Shown: positions 38,690 to 60,130 of the stretch, one piece after another
How the letters are laid out: each line of letters starts with the position of its first letter
Position numbering within the stretch: position 1 is the stretch's first letter
Assembly: GCF_013358405.1 (NCBI RefSeq)
Contig: NZ_CP054836.1
Location: 1,116,001 to 1,180,000 of the forward strand
DNA from: Oricola thermophila
GTDB taxonomy: Bacteria; Pseudomonadota; Alphaproteobacteria; Rhizobiales; Rhizobiaceae
Direction of reading: 5' to 3'
Length of the DNA: 64,000 bases
Program-made: the position numbers and the translations under genes
Notes under the pieces: model-generated
Told to the model about the DNA's origin: nothing
Database searches by the model: none
What the model saw: only the letters and a program-made list of their open reading frames with translations

Positions 38690-40711
38690 ATGTATCACGC
38701 CATTGTCTTTCTGCCGCTGATAGGGTTCCTGGTCGCAGGGCTTTTCGGTCGCTCGATCGGGGCCAAGGCCAGCGAATACGTGACCTCGGGCCTGCTGGTG
38801 GTCTCCGCCGTTCTGTCGTGGATCGCCTACTTCTCCGTGGCCTTTTCCGAGGAGCCGGCCTTCACGGTGGACGTTCTGCGCTGGATCCAGACCGGCGGGC
38901 TGGATGTCTCCTGGGCCTTCCGCATCGACACGCTGACTGTTGTGATGCTTGTGGTGGTCAACACCGTCTCCGCCCTGGTCCACATCTACTCGATCGGCTA
39001 CATGCACCACGATCCGGACCGGCCGCGTTTCTTTGCCTATTTGTCCCTGTTCACCTTCGCCATGCTGATGCTGGTGACATCGGATAACCTCGTGCAGATG
39101 TTCTTTGGCTGGGAAGGCGTGGGTCTCGCCTCCTATCTGCTGATCGGTTTTTGGTACAAGAAGCCGTCGGCCAATGCCGCAGCGATGAAGGCCTTCATTG
39201 TCAACCGCGTCGGCGATTTCGGGTTCTCGCTCGGTATTTTCGGCGTGTTTGTCCTGTTCGGTTCGGTGAGCTTCGCCACCATCTTTGCCAATGCCGCCGA
39301 TTTCCTGCCCGCCGATACTGCGCAGGGAACGGCTGATGCCGGGACGGTTCTGAACTTCCTCGGATACGAGCTCGACAAGGCTCATGCCGTGACCGTCGTC
39401 TGCCTGCTTCTTTTCATGGGGGCGATGGGCAAGTCGGCTCAGTTTCTTCTGCATACCTGGTTGCCGGACGCGATGGAGGGGCCGACTCCGGTCTCCGCGC
39501 TGATTCACGCCGCCACGATGGTTACCGCAGGCGTGTTCATGGTCGCGCGCATGTCGCCGCTGTTCGAGCTAAGTCACACTGCGCTCACAGTGGTGACGAC
39601 CATCGGAGCTATCACCGCCTTCTTCGCTGCGACGGTGGGCCTTGTGCAGAACGACATCAAGCGCGTCATCGCCTACTCGACCTGTTCGCAGCTCGGCTAC
39701 ATGTTTGTCGCGCTCGGTGTCGGTGCCTACGGGGCTGGCGTCTTCCACCTGTTCACTCATGCCTTCTTCAAGGCGCTGCTCTTCCTTGGTGCCGGCTCGG
39801 TGATCCATGCCGTCTCCGACGAGCAGGACATGCGTAAGATGGGGGGGCTGAGAAAGCATATTCCGGTGACGTACTGGATGATGATTGTCGGCACGCTCGC
39901 GCTGACCGGTGTCGGTATTCCGGGTACGCTGTTCGGCACGGCCGGTTTCTTCTCCAAGGACGCGATCATCGAGAGCGCCTATGTCGGCCACAATCCCGCC
40001 GCCGGCTTCGCCTTCGGACTGCTGGTCATCGCCGCGCTGTTTACCAGCTTCTATTCATGGCGGCTGATCTTCATGACGTTCCACGGCAAGCCACGCGCTT
40101 CGGCGGACGTGATGCACCATGTCCACGAGTCGCCGCAGGTCATGCTGGTTCCTCTGTTCGTGCTGGCTGCCGGCGCACTGCTCGCGGGCTTCCTGTTCCA
40201 TGACTCCTTCATTGGTCACGCTGCGGAAGGCGCCCATCACGAGGGCTGGTACAACGAGTTCTGGCGCACTGCGCTTTATGCGGGGCCGGACAACCACGTT
40301 CTTGCCGAGTTCCACCATGTGCCCGCTGCTGTGAAATGGAGCCCGTTCATCGTCATGCTGCTTGGCCTGCTGACGGCGTGGTACATGTATATTCGCTCGC
40401 CGCAGACGCCGAAGGCGCTCGCGGCTCAGCACGAAGGACTCTACAAGTTTCTCCTCAACAAGTGGTATTTCGACGAGCTTTACGACTTCCTGTTCGTAAA
40501 GCCGGCGGTGCGCCTCGGCCACTTCCTCTGGAAGCGGGGTGACGGCTGGCTGATCGACGGCTTCGGGCCCGACGGTGTCGCGGCGCGCGTGCGCCAGGCG
40601 ACCGGTCGCGTCGTCAAGCTGCAGACCGGATACCTCTATCACTATGCGTTCGCGATGCTCATCGGCATCGCAGCGCTTGTCACGTGGATGATGCTCGGGA
40701 GCAGCGTCTGA
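38690..40711 (+). CDS. nuoL: NADH-quinone oxidoreductase subunit L
   Basis: The 673-residue antiporter-like subunit contains the key Glu in [19 protein letters not shown], the Lys in [36 protein letters not shown] and the Lys in [19 protein letters not shown]. The C-terminal region includes the long lateral helix and final membrane helix. Distal proton pump of complex I. Its stop overlaps the nuoM start (TGATG). Confidence 0.97.
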
Positions 40712-42251: not shown

Positions 42252-43697
42252 ATGCCCGCCGAACTCCTCTCTTCAAGTCTCTCGCTGGCGCTGCCCGAGT
42301 TGATCCTTGCGATCGGCGCCATGGCGCTGCTGATGATTGGCGTGTTCGCCCCGCAAGGCCGCGCCAATGTCACGGTAAACGGCCTTGCCGTCGCGCTGCT
42401 CATCGGTGCGCTTGGCTGGATGCTGCTGATCGGCGGCGAGGGACAGGCCTTCAACGGCGCCTATATTCAGGACGGTTTCGCCGTCTTCATGAAGACTTTG
42501 ACTCTGATCGGCTCAATCGTGGCACTTGCCATGTCAGTGGGCTTTGCCCGGGCAGAGAAGTTCGATCGCTTCGAGTTTCCGATCCTGATCGTGCTGGCAA
42601 CCCTCGGCATGATGCTGATGGTATCGGCCAACAGCCTGCTGACCCTTTACATGGGGCTCGAGCTGCAGTCCTTGGCGCTATACGTCGTGGCCGCGATCAA
42701 TCGCGACAGCGTGCGTTCCACCGAGGCCGGCCTGAAATATTTTGTCCTTGGCGCCCTGTCGTCAGGCATGATGCTTTACGGCATATCGCTGGTATACGGC
42801 TTTACCGGCCATATCGACTTCGCCGGCATTACCGGCGCGCTCACCGGTACAGGGCGTTCGCTTGGCGTTCTGTTCGGCCTCGTCTTCCTGATCTCGGGAT
42901 TGGCGTTCAAGATTTCCGCTGTGCCGTTCCACATGTGGACGCCCGATGTCTACGAAGGCGCCCCCACTCCGGTGACGGCGTTTTTCGCTGCCGCGCCCAA
43001 GATGGCGGCAATGGCCATGTTCGTGCGGGTTGTCATTGATGCATTCGCTCCGGTGACTGCCGACTGGCAGCAGATCGTGGTGTTCATTTCCATTGCCTCG
43101 ATGGTACTCGGCGCTTTCGCCGCGATCGGCCAGCGCAACATCAAGCGGCTGATGGCCTATTCGTCCATCGGCCACATGGGCTATGCGTTGGTCGGGCTAT
43201 CTTCCGGCACGCTGGAGGGCGTCAAGGGCGTCATCCTTTACATGACGATCTATCTCGCGATGACGCTGGGAACGTTCGCATTCATCCTCGCTATGCGTCG
43301 CAAGGACGAGGGCAATGTCGAAAGCATCGATGACCTCGCCGGCCTTTCGTCGACGAATCCCGCCATGGCGACCGTGCTGACCATCCTGATGTTCTCGCTG
43401 GCCGGAATTCCGCCGCTGGCTGGCTTCTGGGCCAAGTGGTATGTATTTTATGCTGCCATCGGTGCTGGGCTGTATGCACTTGCCATCATTGGTGTTCTCG
43501 CTTCTGTCGTCAGTGCCTACTACTACCTGCGGGTCATCAAGCTGATGTGGTTCGACGAACCCGTCAGCGGTTTCGCGCCGGCAGCGGGCGAGCTTCGTCT
43601 TGTCATGGGCGTCTCCGCGCTGTTCGTGCTCGGATATGTCCTTGTCGGCGGTCCGATCGCCGCGACGGCGGAAACCGCTGCCCGGTCGCTGTTCTGA
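42252..43697 (+). CDS. nuoN: NADH-quinone oxidoreductase subunit N
   Basis: The 481-residue antiporter-like subunit has [59 protein letters not shown] and [20 protein letters not shown], the pumping residues and Lys-bearing broken helix of the family. Last structural gene of complex I; birA follows after 22 bp, and transcription probably continues. Confidence 0.97.
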
Positions 43698-48600: not shown

Positions 48601-49911
48601 GTGTCAGCCGTCGCCGAGACCGAAGCCGCTTCTCCGGACGCGTTGCGTAACGGCTCCGCGCGACCGTTTTCCGCGTTCGAACGGCTGGTTGCCTGGCGCT
48701 ACCTCAGGCCGCGCCGCAAGGAAGCAGCCGTTTCCATCGTGACAATGATTTCCCTTGTCGGTGTCACGCTGGGTGTGGCGGCCCTGATCATTGTCATGGC
48801 GGTTATGAACGGTTTTCGCGCCGAGTTGCTCGATCGCATACTTGGCCTCAACGGTCATCTCGTCATTTCCGCAATCGAGAGACCGCTGGACGACTATGAC
48901 GCGGTCTCGGAGCGGATCGCGGCTGTGCCGGGCGTGAAGCTCGTCACGCCGATCGTGGAAGGGCAGGCGCTCGCGACCGGCAATGTCGGCGCGGGGTCCG
49001 GCGTGCTCGTTCGCGGCGTTCGCGGCGAGGATTTCGTCAAGCTCGAGTCGATATCCGGCAATATCCAGGAGGGCTCGCTGGAGAGCTACCTGACGGGGGA
49101 CGGTGTCGCGATAGGAAGCCGAATGGCGGTCGATCTGGGCCTGATTGTCGGGGATCGTATCAAGGTCATCTCCCCGGAAGGTGACGTTACGCCCTTCGGC
49201 ACCACGCCGCGTGTGAAATCCTATCCGGTGCGCGCGATCTTCGAGATGGGCATGTCGGAATACGATCGCTCCATCATCTTCATGCCACTGGAAGAGGCGC
49301 AACTCTACTTCAACCAGGAGGGGATTGCGCAGGTCATCGAGGTATTTGTCGAGGATCCCGACGCGGTCGACAGCTACCGGCCGGAAGTCGAGAAGGCCGC
49401 CGGACGGCCAATCTACATCTCCGACTGGCGCCAACGCAATCAGGCCTTCTTCTCCGCGCTGATCATCGAGCGCAATGCGATGTTCCTGATCCTGTCGATC
49501 GTCGTTCTGGTGGCGTCACTGAACATCGTCGCCAGCCTGATCATGATGGTGAAGGAGAAGGCGAGGGGAGTCGCGATCCTGCGCACCATGGGGGCCACCC
49601 AGGCATCGGTTATGCGGATATTCATCATGGCCGGTATCGGTGTCGGGTTCGTTGGAACCGTGGCGGGTTTCCTGCTCGGATTGCTGGTGTGCCTGAACAT
49701 TCGGTCGATCCAGCGGCTGATGAACTGGATGGCCGGAGCCGATGTATGGGATCCGACCATACGCTTCCTGAGCGAAATTCCGGCGAAGATGAACCCCTAC
49801 GAGACGGTGGCGGTCGTCATCCTGTCGTTAAGCCTGTCTTTCCTTGCGGCGATCGTGCCGGCTTGGCGTGCGGCCAAGCTCGATCCCGTGGAAGCGTTGA
49901 GGTACGAATGA
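48601..49911 (+). CDS. lolC: Lipoprotein-releasing ABC transporter permease (LolC/LolE type)
   Basis: The 436-residue protein starts at GTG. After a short cytoplasmic part ([22 protein letters not shown]) come TM1 ([23 protein letters not shown]), a periplasmic domain of about 200 residues, and three further helices from residue about 290 with the FtsX-type [25 protein letters not shown] single LolC/E-type protein with LolD suggests a homodimeric (LolF-like) lipoprotein sorting transporter. Its stop overlaps lolD. Confidence 0.93.
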
Positions 49912-50603
49912 TGACGGCCTCTAGAACCGTTCTCAGGCTGCAAGGCGTCCGCCATGCCTACCAGGAGGTGGATCGCAAGCTCGAAATTCTGAAAGGCGCC
50001 GATTTCGAACTGAAGGCCGGCGAGATGGTTGCCTTGGTCGCACCATCAGGCGCTGGAAAATCGACGCTGCTGCATCTTGCCGGCCTTCTCGAACGGCCCG
50101 AGGGCGGGGAGATATACATTTCGGGCAAGGCCTGCGGCACGCTGTCAGACGGAGAACGTACGGCCAGGCGGCGCAACGACATCGGCTTCGTCTACCAGTT
50201 CCATCACCTGCTTCCGGAATTCTCCGCGCTGGAAAACGTCATGATCCCGCAAATGATCCGCGGATTGTCGAAATCGGTGGCAGCGGAGCGGGCGCGTCAG
50301 CTTCTCGACTACCTGCGCGTCGGCCCGCGTGCCGATCACCGTCCCGCCGAGCTATCTGGCGGCGAGCAGCAGCGCGTGGCGATCGCCCGGGCGGTGGCCA
50401 ATGCGCCGCTGGTGCTGCTGGCGGACGAACCGACCGGCAACCTTGACCCTGAAACCTCGGGGTATGTCTTCGAGGCATTGTCCGCATTGGCGCGGCAGTC
50501 GGGCCTCGCTTCGCTCGTTGCCACGCACAACCACGCGCTCGCCGAAAGGATGGACCGGGTTGTCACCCTTGAGGACGGCCTTATCGTTCCCTGGTCCGCG
50601 TAG
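49908..50603 (+). CDS. lolD: Lipoprotein-releasing ABC transporter ATP-binding protein
   Basis: The 231-residue ATPase has Walker A ([18 protein letters not shown]), the Q-loop in [23 protein letters not shown], the signature [14 protein letters not shown] and Walker [16 protein letters not shown], with the H-loop at ATHNHALAE. It powers release of lipoproteins from the inner membrane with LolC. The start is ATGATG overlapping the lolC stop; either ATG is possible. Confidence 0.95.
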
Positions 50604-50664: not shown

Positions 50665-50693
50665 TTGCAATCGGAACAGAAACAGAACATAAA
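50665..50693 (+). promoter_or_regulatory. Promoter with LexA (SOS) box in its spacer
   Basis: TTGCAA (50665-50670) and CATAAA (50688-50693) are separated by 17 bp. Between them GAAC (50674-50677) and GAAC (50685-50688) are spaced by exactly seven bases, the direct-repeat operator of alphaproteobacterial LexA (GAAC-N7-GAAC, or GTTC-N7-GTTC on the other strand). LexA bound here would block the promoter. The transcript would start near 50700 and reach the 28-codon ORF about 25 bases later. Confidence 0.7.
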
Positions 50694-50724
50694 GGGTATA
50701 GACGACAAACAAGGAGATCGAAAG

Positions 50725-50811
50725 ATGACTTTCCTGCTCCGCGACATTGCTTCGCTCGCTTCCGTTGCCGCATTCGTCATGACCTTCTCGCTCTGTATCA
50801 GCGCACTCTGA
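50725..50811 (+). CDS. 28-residue predicted membrane peptide, SOS-controlled
   Basis: An ATG with AAGGAG eight bases upstream opens 28 codons ending in TGA. The peptide starts MTFLLRDIAS and ends SLCISAL: a short polar start with Arg6 and Asp7, then about 21 mostly hydrophobic residues, enough for one membrane span. The promoter has a perfect LexA-type box. Known SOS-induced peptides of this size act in the inner membrane (Caulobacter SidA, 29 residues, inhibits division; E. coli TisB, 29 residues, depolarises). Similarity is in size, layout and control; I cannot show sequence homology. It lies alone between lolD and dnaE. Confidence 0.65.
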   Translation: MTFLLRDIASLASVAAFVMTFSLCISAL

Positions 50812-50948: not shown

Positions 50949-53900
50949 ATGGGCGATATGCCTTCGGACAGTGATGCCGGAACTCCGGATCTCACGGAAC
51001 CTCGATTCATCCATCTGCGCGTGCATTCGGCCTTTTCCCTGCTCGAAGGCGCGCTGCCTCTCAAGAAGCTGATCGGCTTTGCTGTCTCCAACGGAATGCC
51101 CGCGATAGGGATAGCCGATACCGGCAACCTTTTCGGCGCGCTGGAATTCGCGCAGAAGGCGTCGGGTGAGGGCGTACAACCCATTGTCGGCTGCCAACTC
51201 GATCTCGCATTCGGTGGAGATCTTGCGACCCCGCGTTCGGGCAGCGGCAAGAACACGACGGCGCGCCGTGCCGAGGCAGTCGTGCTGATCGCCGCCACGG
51301 AAGAAGGCTATGCCAATCTTGTCGAGCTGGTATCGAAATCCTATCTGGACACCGACGAGGAATGCCGTGCCCAGCTTGAGTTCGAGTGGCTCAGGGATCG
51401 TGCCGAAGGGGTGATATGCCTGTCCGGCGGTCCGCTCGGGCCGATCAGTCGGCTGCTGGCGGATGGGCACGAGCCGATCGCCGAACAGCGTCTCGTCGAG
51501 TTGAAGAAGGTGTTCGGCGACAGGCTCTATGTCGAGTTGCAGCGGCACAAGGGCTATGACCGGGCTGTCGAGCACGCGACCGTCGAGCTCGCCTACAGGC
51601 ATGAACTGCCCCTTGTGGCGACCAACGAGGCGTTTTTCCTCGAGCCCGGCGACTACGAAGCGCATGATGCACTGATCGCCATCGCGGAGGGATCCCTCCT
51701 TTCAATTGACGACCGCCGCCGCCTCACGCCGGATCACTGGTTGAAGCCGGAAGCGGAGATGGTCGCGCTTTTCGAAGACCTGCCCGAAGCGGTCGACAAT
51801 ACGGTCGAAATCGCGAAACGTTGCAGTTACTTCCCGCAGACCCGGAAACCGATCCTTCCGCGCTTTTCCGCCGACGCGAAAGGTGTCGGGCACGATGAGG
51901 CGGTCGCCGCCGAGGCTGCAGAACTTCGCCGGCAGGCCCGGGAAGGGCTGGACAGGCGGCTTTCCGAGCTGGGAATGAGCGAGGGTTATACCCGGGGCGA
52001 CTATGACGAAAGGCTGGAATACGAGCTCGGCATCATCGAGAAGATGCAGTTCCCGGGCTACTTCCTGATCGTCTCCGACTTCATCAAGTGGGCCAAGGCC
52101 CATGACATCCCGGTCGGACCCGGACGCGGTTCCGGCGCTGGCTCGTTGGTGGCCTGGGCGCTGACGATCACGGATGTCGACCCGCTGCGCTTCTCGCTTC
52201 TGTTCGAGCGGTTCCTCAACCCGGACCGCGTTTCGATGCCGGACTTCGACATCGACTTCTGCCAGGATCGCCGCGAGGAAGTGATCCGCTACGTGCAGGA
52301 GCGGTATGGCCGCGATCAGGTCGGCCAGATCATCACCTTCGGTACGCTGCAGGCGCGCGCCGTGTTGCGCGATGTCGGGCGCGTGCTGGAGATGCCCTAC
52401 GGCCAGGTTGATCGCCTGTGCAAGCTCGTTCCGAATAACCCTGCGAACCCGACCCCGCTCGCCAAGGCGGTCGAGGACGAGCCGAAGTTCGAGGAGGAGA
52501 AGCAGAAGGAGCCGATCGTCGGGCAGCTTCTCGACATGGCAATGAAGCTGGAGGGCCTTTACCGCCACGCCTCGACGCATGCTGCCGGCATCGTGATCGG
52601 CGACCGGCCGCTGTGGGAACTGGTTCCCATGTATCGCGACCCGCGGTCCGACATGCCCGTGACCCAGTTCAACATGAAATGGGTGGAACAGGCGGGGCTC
52701 GTGAAGTTCGACTTCCTCGGCCTGAAGACGCTGACCGTGCTGAAGACTGCCGTGAACCTGATCCGGCGTCGCGGTATCGATATCGAGTTGTCCAAGTTGC
52801 CGCTGGACGACCCGAAGACCTACGAGATGCTGTCGCGCGGCGAAACCGTTGGCGTGTTCCAGGTGGAATCGGCGGGCATGCGCAAGGCGCTTATCGGCAT
52901 GAAGCCGGACCGGATCGAGGATATCATCGCGCTGGTGGCGCTCTACCGTCCCGGTCCGATGGAGAACATTCCCACCTACAACGCCCGCAAGCACGGCGAG
53001 GAGGAAATCGCCTCGATCCATCCCAAGATCGACCACCTGGTGAAGGAGACGCAGGGCGTCATCATCTACCAGGAGCAGGTGATGCAGATTGCCCAGGAAC
53101 TGGCCGGCTACACACTCGGACAGGCGGACCTGCTCCGCCGCGCCATGGGAAAGAAGATTCGCTCGGAGATGGAGAAGCAGCGTGGCATCTTCGTTGCGGG
53201 CGCAACCGAGCGCGGCGTGTCGAAGCAGCAGGCCGACTTCATCTTCGACTTGCTGGCCAAATTCGCCGACTACGGCTTCAACAAGTCGCACGCCGCGGCC
53301 TATGCCATCGTCTCCTACCAGACCGCCTATCTGAAGGCGCATTATCCGGTGGAGTTTCTCGCTGCGTCCATGACCTACGACATGGCGAATGCGGAGAAGC
53401 TGAACGACTTTCGGCGCGACGCCATGCGCCTGGGCATCGAGGTCGTTCCGCCATCGGTCCAGACCTCCTACCGGCCGTTCGAGGTGGGCGAGAACAAGAT
53501 CTTCTATGCCCTGGCGGCCATCAAGGGAGTTGGCGAGGCTGCTGTCGATCACATTGTCGAGCGACGCGGCGACAAGCCTTTCGAGAGCCTGGAGGACTTC
53601 GCCAGCCGCATCGATACGCGCATTGTCAACCGCCGCACGCTGGAAGGCTTGATCGCTGCCGGTGCGCTGGACTGCTTCGGACACGATCGCGCGACGTTGG
53701 TCGCAGGCATTGATCGCATCATGGGGCTTTCGCAGCGTACCGTCGAACAGGCCGAAAGCGGGCAGGGTGACATTTTCGGCACGCTTGCGGCGGTGGAGCC
53801 GGAGCGCCTTCATCTGCCGCATGCAGAGCCCTGGATGACATCGGAAAAGCTGATGCGCGAGTTCCAGGCGCTCGGTTTCTACTTTTCCGCCCACCCGCTG

Positions 53901-54458
53901 GACGACTATGCGGATGTGCTCAAGAAAATGCGTGTTCAGCAATTTGCCGATTTTGCGCTCGCCGTGAGACGGGGGGCCACCGCCGGCCGGCTTGCCGGCA
54001 CCGTGGCGTCCAAGCAGATCCGACGTACCCGTACCGGCAACAAGATGGGTATCTTCGTGCTCTCGGACGCGACCGGCCAGTACGAGGTGGTTATGTTCTC
54101 GGAAGTCCTGCAGGCTTTCGAAGACCTGCTGGAGCCGGGATCCTCTGTTGTATTGGAAGTAGCGGCGGAGAACCGCGAAGAGGGCATCAGCCTGCGCGCG
54201 AACAAGGTCCAGCGGCTGGATGACGAGGCGCAGCGCCAGACCCACGCCATGCGCATCTATCTTCGGGACCAGAAGCCGGTGAAGAGCATCGCCGCCCATC
54301 TGAAGAAGAAGGGTGAAAGCCCCGTGTCCCTGATCGTTATAAAGGGCGAGGGGGGCGGCGAGGTCGAGATCGCGCTGCCGGACACCTACCAGGTTTCGCC
54401 GCCGATCGCCGGCGCCGTGAAGGCCATCCCCGGCGTGGTGGATGTGGAACTGGTCTAG
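50949..54458 (+). CDS. dnaE: DNA polymerase III alpha subunit
   Basis: The 1169-residue replicative polymerase (DnaE1 type) has an N-terminal PHP domain (FIHLRVHSAFSLLEGALPLKKL), the catalytic Asp pair in SMPDFDIDFCQDRREEVIRYV, and FVAG-containing thumb and finger regions. The C-terminal OB-fold begins near VASKQIRRTRTGNKMGIFVL. It starts at an ATG at 50949 with a second ATG at 50958. A LexA-controlled promoter 250 bp upstream could add to its expression. It ends in a 4-bp convergent overlap with the next gene. Confidence 0.96.
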   Translation: MGDMPSDSDAGTPDLTEPRFIHLRVHSAFSLLEGALPLKKLIGFAVSNGMPAIGIADTGNLFGALEFAQKASGEGVQPIVGCQLDLAFGGDLATPRSGSGKNTTARRAEAVVLIAATEEGYANLVELVSKSYLDTDEECRAQLEFEWLRDRAEGVICLSGGPLGPISRLLADGHEPIAEQRLVELKKVFGDRLYVELQRHKGYDRAVEHATVELAYRHELPLVATNEAFFLEPGDYEAHDALIAIAEGSLLSIDDRRRLTPDHWLKPEAEMVALFEDLPEAVDNTVEIAKRCSYFPQTRKPILPRFSADAKGVGHDEAVAAEAAELRRQAREGLDRRLSELGMSEGYTRGDYDERLEYELGIIEKMQFPGYFLIVSDFIKWAKAHDIPVGPGRGSGAGSLVAWALTITDVDPLRFSLLFERFLNPDRVSMPDFDIDFCQDRREEVIRYVQERYGRDQVGQIITFGTLQARAVLRDVGRVLEMPYGQVDRLCKLVPNNPANPTPLAKAVEDEPKFEEEKQKEPIVGQLLDMAMKLEGLYRHASTHAAGIVIGDRPLWELVPMYRDPRSDMPVTQFNMKWVEQAGLVKFDFLGLKTLTVLKTAVNLIRRRGIDIELSKLPLDDPKTYEMLSRGETVGVFQVESAGMRKALIGMKPDRIEDIIALVALYRPGPMENIPTYNARKHGEEEIASIHPKIDHLVKETQGVIIYQEQVMQIAQELAGYTLGQADLLRRAMGKKIRSEMEKQRGIFVAGATERGVSKQQADFIFDLLAKFADYGFNKSHAAAYAIVSYQTAYLKAHYPVEFLAASMTYDMANAEKLNDFRRDAMRLGIEVVPPSVQTSYRPFEVGENKIFYALAAIKGVGEAAVDHIVERRGDKPFESLEDFASRIDTRIVNRRTLEGLIAAGALDCFGHDRATLVAGIDRIMGLSQRTVEQAESGQGDIFGTLAAVEPERLHLPHAEPWMTSEKLMREFQALGFYFSAHPLDDYADVLKKMRVQQFADFALAVRRGATAGRLAGTVASKQIRRTRTGNKMGIFVLSDATGQYEVVMFSEVLQAFEDLLEPGSSVVLEVAAENREEGISLRANKVQRLDDEAQRQTHAMRIYLRDQKPVKSIAAHLKKKGESPVSLIVIKGEGGGEVEIALPDTYQVSPPIAGAVKAIPGVVDVELV

Positions 54459-57491: not shown

Positions 57492-58790
57492 TCAGGCGTC
57501 CTGGTCGCGCCGCGGCTTGCCGCGGAGGCCGGTTCCGAAGGTGTAGCCGGTTTCCAGCGCGCGGGTGCCGAATTTCGCCCTTACCTTGTCCATGGCCGCC
57601 TCGGCCCGGGCGCGCTGCTCTGCCGCCGTGTCTATCAAGTCCGACGGATCGGCCGTTGCGTCCCTGGCAAGATCCGAGACGCCTACGCCGAGCAGGCGGA
57701 ATTCGGTTCCGTCGAGTTCCTTTTCCAGCATCGGGAGGGCCGTACGAAAGATCCGGTCGGCTAGCCGCGTCCGGTCTGCAAGCTGGCGGTTTCGCGTGCG
57801 CGTCCTGAATTGCCTGTCCTTGAGTTTCAGGGTGACGGTACGGCCCGCGAGGTCCGCTGCTTTCAGTCGTTGCGAGACCTTTTCCGACAATGCGCGGAGG
57901 ACAGGCACCAGGTCGTCGGCGGTGGAGTAGTCCCGATTGAACGTGGTCTCCGCCGAAATGCTCTTGGCTTCGTGGTCGGGTTGGACTTTGCGGTCGTCGA
58001 TGCCGCGTGAAAGATGATAGAGCCGGCGCCCCATCACGCCGTAACGCTTCATCAGCACGGACTCCTCCATGGATTGCAATTGTCCGATGCTTCGGATGCC
58101 GTCCTTTTCAAGCGTCGCGGCAAATGCCTTGCCCACGCCCCATACCATGGTCACGGGCTTGTCGTGCAGGAAGGAACGCGCCTCCGCCGTGCCGATCACC
58201 GAGAAGCCGCGGGGCTTTTCGAGGTCCGAGGCGACCTTGGCGAGGAACTTGCAGTAGGAAAGACCGACCGACACGGTGATGCCGATCCGGCTTTCGACCC
58301 GCTTGGCGAACTTGGCGAGTACGCGTGATGGTGCTTCCTTGTGCAGTCGCTCGGTTCCGCTGAGGTCGAGAAACGCCTCGTCTATGGAAATCGGTTCGAC
58401 CAGCGGCGTAAGTTCGCGCATCATGTCCCGCACCTCGCGGCCGACGCGGGCGTATTTCTCCATTTCCGGCTTTATGACCACGGCATCAGGGCAGGCCTTC
58501 AGTGCCTTGTACATCGGCATTGCCGAACGCACGCCGTTGATGCGCGCGATATAGCAGCATGTGGAGACAACGCCTCGCTTGCCGCCGCCGACGATGACCG
58601 GTTTATCGCGCAGTTCCGGCCGGTCGCGCTTCTCGACCGACGCATAGAATGCATCGCAATCAATATGGGCAATCGACAGCGTGTCGAGTTCCGAATGACG
58701 GACGATGCGCGGGCTGCCGCAGGCAAGACAGCGCTTTTCCCGCCCCTCGATCGGGCGCAGGCAATCGCGGCAAAATCCCGAAGCCGGCAT
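57492..58790 (-). CDS. dinB: DNA polymerase IV with N-terminal zinc-ribbon-like motif
   Basis: I prefer the ATG at 58790 (432 residues) because the LexA box and the presumed transcription start lie just upstream; ATG at 58808 would be nearly leaderless. Cys7, Cys10, Cys21 and Cys24 form a zinc-ribbon-like C-x2-C...C-x2-C before the catalytic core. The core has [41 protein letters not shown] and [17 protein letters not shown] motifs with the metal-binding acids. The enzyme copies past damaged bases in the SOS response. Confidence 0.93.
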
Positions 58791-58814
58791 GTTGACAGTT
58801 TCCGTCATCGGTGT

Positions 58815-58835
58815 GAACATACCATGAACATTATG
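58815..58835 (-). promoter_or_regulatory. LexA (SOS) box and -10 element of dinB
   Basis: GAAC at 58815-58818 and 58826-58829 are separated by seven bases; on the dinB strand this reads GTTC-N7-GTTC. Immediately upstream on that strand is CATAAT (58830-58835), a good -10. LexA would therefore sit over the start point. The box is 52 bp upstream of the divergent acetyltransferase gene, which may share the control. Confidence 0.8.
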
Positions 58836-58880
58836 CACGAAACATCCCGTAGGTTGTTATCACCAGGCCAGGAAGACGTC

Positions 58881-59464: not shown

Positions 59465-60130
59465 TCAGCAAGCGAGGTTCGACAGGTGTTCGGCGATCGC
59501 CTCAGCGGCTTCCGCCCAGCTTTCAACCGTTCGTACGCCTTTGGGCATCGGCGGCAGAAGCGCCCTGAGTGGCCGATAGGCCATCAGGTGCAATGCGAGC
59601 GCGTCCGGTACCGTTTCCAGCACGCTGACATGGTTGGGAGGCAGATCGTCGATGAACGCGACCGGACGCCGGGGATGGTGGCGGATCAACGTGGCGACCG
59701 CCGCACCCTTTGCTTCCTCCGTCGCGATCATGGGATGCGGGAAACCGTGCCGGTCGAGCAGAGCACGGCGGCGCGCGTGATGGCGCGGCGGCATGGCGGT
59801 CAGGTAGACGATGTCGACGCCGTGCTTCGCCTCGATCGTCGCCAGTGTCTCGCGCGCACCCTCGGCCGGTTTCTGCCAGGAATCGTGTTCGTTGAAGAAG
59901 CGTTCCAGAAATTCGGAAATTGTAGCTTTGTCAGCCGGTTCTCCCGTTTTCTTGAAGTAGACATTCCCGGTCAGCTGGAACGAGTCGGTGCGCAACTCAT
60001 GGTCGTGGCTTTCCAGGAAGGCCATGAAGGGCGAGACGAATTCCAGCACCACTTCGTCAATGTCGCAAATGATGAGCGGACGCTCCGAGCGCGCCAGGGC
60101 CTCGATGCGGTTGCGCTCCGCAGGTGTCAT
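59465..60130 (-). CDS. HAD-like hydrolase
   Basis: The ATG at 60130 overlaps the stop of the DUF3572 gene (ATGA); an ATG at 60142 would add four residues. The 221-residue protein has [12 protein letters not shown] (Asp23, Asp25 of HAD motif I), [19 protein letters not shown] in the motif II region and [16 protein letters not shown] as motif IV. It may be a phosphatase on a small substrate. It is the second gene of a minus-strand pair. Confidence 0.8.

Follow-up and report, generated by a model that had tools for sequence, protein, structure and literature searches.

The open reading frame at positions 50725–50811 of the analysed 64-kb stretch of DNA (hereafter the window) is probably a gene of the SidA family, the peptide of which would block late cell division after DNA damage. 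Direct support comes from sequence comparisons, namely the conservation of the coding frame, the LexA-type box and its place in the promoter, the synteny and the similarity of profiles to peptides of the Caulobacteraceae. The features of the locus are as follows:

49911–50603, forward strand: lolD, the upstream neighbour (best match TIGR02211, 249.2 bits, under the curated cut-off of 307.75)
50665–50670, forward strand: −35 element TTGCAA, read directly, with a 17-base spacer to the −10 element
50674–50688, forward strand: putative LexA operator GAACAGAAACAGAAC, of the form GAAC-N7-GAAC, from a motif scan
50688–50693, forward strand: −10 element CATAAA, its first base shared with the LexA-type box
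50711–50716, forward strand: ribosome-binding site AAGGAG, eight bases 5' of the ATG at 50725
50725–50811, forward strand: 28-codon ORF of a predicted single-span membrane peptide, the probable SidA homologue, with the TGA stop at 50809–50811
50949–54458, forward strand: dnaE, the DNA polymerase III alpha subunit, the downstream neighbour (PRK05673, 1505.4 bits, cut-off 1002)

A sequence-only reading of this DNA had described the promoter, the LexA-type box, the AAGGAG and the 28-codon ORF, all of which were found at their positions by direct reading, and had placed them between lolD and dnaE, which agrees with the profile matches of both neighbours and with the synteny kept in relatives. Its statement that the box lies exactly in the promoter spacer needs a small correction: the box does fill the spacer, but its final C also serves as the opening base of the −10 element, so that it is not wholly inside. 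The −35 element begins 9 nt ahead of the first GAAC, and the stop codon of the ORF is separated from the start of dnaE by 137 nt. The encoded peptide, MTFLLRDIASLASVAAFVMTFSLCISAL, exhibits one hydrophobic span covering approximately residues 8–28 (judged by eye). A TTG-started ORF of 48 codons also spans positions 50665–50811; the conserved form is, instead, the 28-codon one starting with ATG.

Taken alone, the box in the window is weak evidence, because GAAC-N7-GAAC is seen there five times against 2.08 expected, and five or more matches were reached in 5 of 100 shuffles; the previous estimate of one to two chance direct repeats per 64 kb was thus a fair one. It is conservation, rather than the count of boxes in the window, that on the sequence evidence decides the case. 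The stricter pattern GAACAN6GAACA has 10 sites in the entire 4.0-Mb genome (three for the reversed control pattern), five of which are located at the window peptide, lexA, recA, dinB and an ImuA-like gene, the match of the last being 48 bits, i.e. under the curated cut-off of 150. The boxes at lexA, recA, dinB and the ImuA-like gene support the motif as the probable LexA operator in this organism. Concerning dinB (DNA polymerase IV; ORF 57492–58838), the second LexA-type box of the window, GAACATACCATGAAC, is positioned at 58815–58829, six bases before the likely ATG (58808, minus strand), or, if translation begins at an in-frame ATG further upstream, overlapping that codon; nearby, a divergent ORF without an NCBIfam match also starts. 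The gene dinB may be under SOS control in this organism; for Caulobacter dinB, an excerpt of PMC1839093 reports no evidence of SOS control. The three additional GAAC-N7-GAAC matches in the window (40298–40312, 42856–42870 and 59477–59491, minus strand) are probably due to chance.

With regard to the peptide itself, its window sequence, used as a query against 61 genomes, was matched in 25 of them (E up to 1), most of the loci adjoining lolD and dnaE. A profile of 23 members matched, at E up to 0.1, 179 of the 199 sampled genomes of the window's family—in most of them once per genome and mostly at one locus—and nine of the 20 genomes without a match are 2.0 Mb or smaller. At the level of the order, 141 of 297 genomes were matched by a 32-member profile at E up to 0.1, weak and uncertain rows included, and 66 of 297 by a narrower profile. 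For closer inspection, 80 further loci were fetched, 60 chosen from the rows of the family search and 20 from those of the order search; the choice did not take all rows and, for the order, passed over those with very long open frames. All 80 encode a peptide of 25–38 residues starting from ATG. Among six congeneric sequences, dN/dS ranges from 0.08 to 0.44 in 15 pairs, and the columns varying at the first, second and third codon positions number 11, 5 and 22 of 27, respectively; judged by these substitutions, the frame of the peptide is under purifying selection.

Asp7 and Phe17 are invariant in all 81 distinct 28-residue members, these having come from profile searches with their bias toward conserved residues, and both positions vary outside this set, Glu7 being usual in Caulobacteraceae and Val17 being present in locus L141. 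Residue 10 is Ser or Ala, and residue 24 is mostly Trp (39 of the 81 28-residue members), its place being taken by Cys in the window peptide. A conserved face of the helix was tested and found not significant (p 0.061). Pfam holds no family for the window peptide and none for the Caulobacter-type peptide. Plasmid collections, searched with two family peptides, and phage collections, searched with one, gave no hit with E of 1 or less, such short queries having little power there. A few copies of the peptide (loci L297, L298 and L027; MRDLIEDIAGFVAVSTFIATFAVWAGYLAEKVG in L298) are situated away from lolD and dnaE and lack the strict LexA box; they are possibly carried by mobile elements, the L298 peptide having no match in the phage or plasmid collections.

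The operator is retained together with the peptide. A strict GAAC-N7-GAAC is found within 120 nt upstream of the ATG in 67 of the 80 fetched loci (53 of 60 from the family, 14 of 20 from the order), and the number rises to 74 of 80 when one mismatch is allowed, i.e. of the 13 loci without the strict form, six are also without the one-mismatch one. As a background, the rest of the same loci contains 11 boxes per 468,220 strand-bases, corresponding to 0.0025 per upstream interval and to approximately 0.2 expected in 80. A TTG hexamer precedes the box in 56 of the 67 boxed promoters, and in 43 of the 67 it starts at precisely the 9-nt distance from the first GAAC that the window also shows. Neither of the two checks in relatives proposed by the sequence-only reading has refuted it, the reading frame being kept with a synonymous-biased pattern and the LexA box far exceeding the background. 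It should be mentioned that in 11 of the 80 loci two strict boxes are found 11 bases apart, i.e. three GAAC half-sites in a row (L060, L061, L063, L064, L266, L276 and L279 are among them); such triple half-sites might accommodate a pair of LexA dimers or allow repression to be graded.

As for the neighbourhood, dnaE follows on the same strand within approximately 1.5 kb in 49 of the 80 loci, lolD precedes in 51, and at least one of the two is present in 67. In 31 loci no dnaE was found within approximately 1.5 kb downstream, and in two of seven inspected loci (L276 and L272) the next gene, LipB-like by eye, is on the opposite strand, with both the peptide and the box being kept. These counts bear on an alternative that we regard as unlikely, in which the ORF is a leader (uORF) of dnaE, so that the SOS-controlled translation of its 28 codons tunes dnaE and the peptide has no target of its own. 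Such a role would agree with the start of dnaE 137 nt past the stop and with the 49 loci having dnaE close downstream, as well as with the apparent lack of a consistent terminator after the ORF (z < −2 in 17 of 83 cases vs 4 of 83 control stretches; −0.1 in the window) and with sORF25 of Sinorhizobium meliloti, which is translated in the dnaE1 5'-UTR, an excerpt of PMC10117765 allowing that some 5'-UTR sORFs could be uORFs. It is weakened, however, because the peptide and its box are also kept where dnaE was not found close downstream (31 of the 80 loci), in two inspected cases beside an opposite-strand gene, and a place in a dnaE leader is apparently not universal. It is also difficult to reconcile with selection on the amino acids, Asp7 and Phe17 being present in 81 of 81 members, since a regulatory uORF needs neither. 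Independently of this, strong hairpins just past the peptide stop were observed in the congeners L002, L003 and L005 (z −3.2, −3.9 and −2.4, respectively), not in the window.

The probable relationship of the window peptide to SidA emerges from class-wide searches. The first of them, run with a profile lacking any sequence of the family f115, matched 21 of 385 genomes, mostly with pieces of long ORFs. Seven of 20 new loci had an open frame shorter than 80 codons; two of these do not combine a place by dnaE with a strict box, and the other five (L083, L085, L086, L090 and L102, two of them from f115) exhibit both dnaE and GAAC-N7-GAAC near the start, neither having been used in the search. In f115 itself, counting weak rows, 88 of 99 genomes are matched (E up to 0.3); dnaE is present in all of the 47 loci read, and 45 of these yielded the peptide, the remaining two loci being incomplete. 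The peptide is 29 residues long in 37 of the 45, and a strict box is located within 120 nt in 33, the other 12 being without it. The family is taken to be Caulobacteraceae because the dnaE of an uncultured Caulobacter sp., preceded at 126 nt by a 29-residue peptide with a LexA box, is 93% identical to the dnaE of the f115 genome G964.

This single-contig, Caulobacter-like genome was scanned for ORFs of 27–31 codons near its 97 GAAC-N7-GAAC sites, the far side being covered to only approximately 100 nt for 67 of them. The dnaE-adjacent peptide, with an 18-residue mean hydropathy of 2.09, is the sole ATG-started ORF of that length above 1.5 near a box; a lax filter of 1.2 gives five other rows, four of them weak (1.23–1.46, one ATG-started) and one TTG-started with 1.68. 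Because there is a single strong ATG candidate near the G964 boxes, the Caulobacter-type dnaE-adjacent peptide is very probably SidA, as judged by its length and locus, its LexA site and the elimination of other ORFs. According to excerpts of the respective papers, SidA is the SOS-induced, inner-membrane division inhibitor of Caulobacter, having 29 residues and binding FtsW (PMC4211646), its gene is under LexA control (PMC12700426) and carries the locus tag CCNA_02004 (PMC11034885), and Caulobacter dnaE and recN are CC1926 and CC1983 (PMC1839093). Since recN also appears as ccna_02062, i.e. with an offset of 79, dnaE would be found at approximately CCNA_02003 to 02005, beside sidA, by arithmetic on locus tags taken from these excerpts rather than from a map.

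The two sets of peptides can be aligned as profiles: hhalign of 17 Caulobacteraceae peptides with the 32-member set gave 95.2% with an E of 2.6e-8 over residues 1–21, and the profile score of 31.42 was reached by none of 100 column permutations (at most 16.9), although permuting columns 8–28 alone (100 permutations) gave up to 28.12. The window peptide and the Caulobacter-type one share only 25% identity. The comparison with SidA drawn in the sequence-only reading has gained substance, and a likeness beyond analogy is supported by the shared locus, the usual 29-residue length in Caulobacteraceae, the LexA linkage (strict box in 33 of 45) and the alignable profiles.

The profile similarity to the Caulobacteraceae peptides is also of importance for another alternative, which we consider more doubtful still than a dnaE leader, i.e. 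an SOS toxin resembling TisB, many copies of which would depolarise the inner membrane and leave the cells dormant. The LexA-type box, the similar length and the one membrane span are what such a toxin would share, but the helix of the window peptide contains no charged residues after the R6-D7 pair, unlike the amphipathic TisB, and the gene is mostly found as one match per genome at one locus. The window, moreover, has no Rfam match and, therefore, no described IstR-type RNA, although an undescribed antisense RNA may be present. A membrane-active peptide of this kind is less likely than one resembling SidA. As to a chance ORF next to a chance box, for which only the unimpressive box count in the window could be invoked, it may be dismissed as practically refuted by the conserved frame, box, spacing and place.

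Concerning the spread over other lineages, the peptide with a strict box was found in four of 35 mostly alphaproteobacterial dnaE loci (L175–L209, some of them cut short upstream of dnaE), originating from Caulobacter sp. (L175), Maricaulis sp. (L178), a Hyphomicrobiales bacterium (L196) and an alphaproteobacterium (L186), in the last case approximately 680 nt before dnaE; a fifth locus, from Oceanicaulis sp. (L177), has the peptide without the strict box. In 45 loci mostly from gamma- and betaproteobacteria (L210–L254), the sequence ahead of dnaE, covered over as much as 900 nt (approximately 30 nt for L253), contained no strict box. A wider profile matched 109 of 385 genomes of the class at E up to 0.3, mostly as long-ORF noise. 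Among 29 new loci from this search, 17 have an open frame of up to 125 codons, 12 of which combine a strict box with dnaE, five being already in the profile and seven, from four families, being new; of the rest, one has dnaE but a misparsed peptide, one is an incomplete locus and three are without box and dnaE. Taken together, these searches show a gene that is widespread both in the family of the window and in Caulobacteraceae and frequent in the order, with only scattered finds elsewhere.

The SidA-like reading suggests the following course of events. In undamaged cells, RNA polymerase would be blocked by LexA bound to GAACAGAAACAGAAC in the space from the −35 to the −10 element; upon DNA damage, the activated RecA would lead to cleavage of LexA, the promoter would fire and the 28-residue peptide would be made. 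It would then enter the inner membrane as one helix, its short N-terminal tail bearing the R6-D7 pair, and, like SidA, would hold the late division complex FtsW/FtsI/FtsN inactive until the DNA has been repaired. We infer the identity of the Caulobacteraceae peptides with SidA and also that the window peptide is induced and inserted in this way, acts on this target and affects division. In Caulobacter, mitomycin C brings about strong expression from PsidA (PMC5189948), and the loss of LexA results in filamentous cells via SidA (PMC12700426); the effect of SidA overproduction is suppressed there by FtsW(A31K) (PMC4211646).

On balance, we favour the view that SidA represents an old alphaproteobacterial SOS division checkpoint instead of a Caulobacter speciality, one that was fixed between lolD and dnaE before the split of Caulobacterales and Hyphomicrobiales and that some further lineages have retained, each with a form of its own; it would be easy to overlook, since genes of fewer than 30 codons often go unannotated. 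Where dnaE follows at a short distance, its expression may also be raised from this LexA promoter, so that the division arrest would be coupled to the supply of polymerase. Hyphomicrobiales include nitrogen-fixing symbionts and known pathogens. No SOS division inhibitor named for this order, and no report of SidA outside Caulobacter, was found in searches of the open-licence PMC literature. The conserved SidA homologue would be a direct candidate for such an inhibitor in Hyphomicrobiales, and the natural variation of the peptide, with Asp7 and Phe17 fixed among the 28-residue members, offers a route to how a short helix may switch off FtsW/FtsI/FtsN.

With regard to known systems, a small ORF translated just upstream of the replicative dnaE is found in the same order, namely sORF25 of S. 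meliloti 2011, detected by Ribo-seq as described in an excerpt of PMC10117765; it may be the orthologue of the window peptide. The orthologue could, instead, be SEP6 of the same species, which has fewer than 30 residues, a predicted membrane helix, a presence in the P100 fraction and conservation in Hyphomicrobiales (same paper). Within the main text of that paper, neither LexA nor SOS is mentioned, and the main text of the S. meliloti promoter map (PMC3616915) contains no occurrence of LexA or dnaE. DidA, SosA and YneA are comparable at the level of function, all being small proteins that stop division after DNA damage; DidA differs in being SOS-independent and binding FtsN (excerpt of PMC4211646). 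TisB from E. coli resembles the window peptide in being a LexA-controlled membrane peptide. It is approximately 29 residues long, its helix is amphipathic, with charges distributed all along it, and it is paired with an antisense RNA (IstR), whereas neither such a helix (by sequence) nor such an RNA (by Rfam, in the window) is seen for the window peptide. SidA, for its part, binds to FtsW/FtsN and stops division while the Z-ring stays assembled. The window peptide departs from it by the absence of Trp19-Met20 of the Caulobacter type and by Asp7 replacing the usual Glu7, and resembles it in having 28 residues (29 in SidA) with one span judged by hydropathy, a LexA-type site in the promoter as read from the sequence, the box recurring in 67 of 80 relatives, a locus by dnaE and often lolD in both Caulobacteraceae and Hyphomicrobiales, and a profile similar over residues 1–21 to that of the Caulobacteraceae peptides taken here as SidA.
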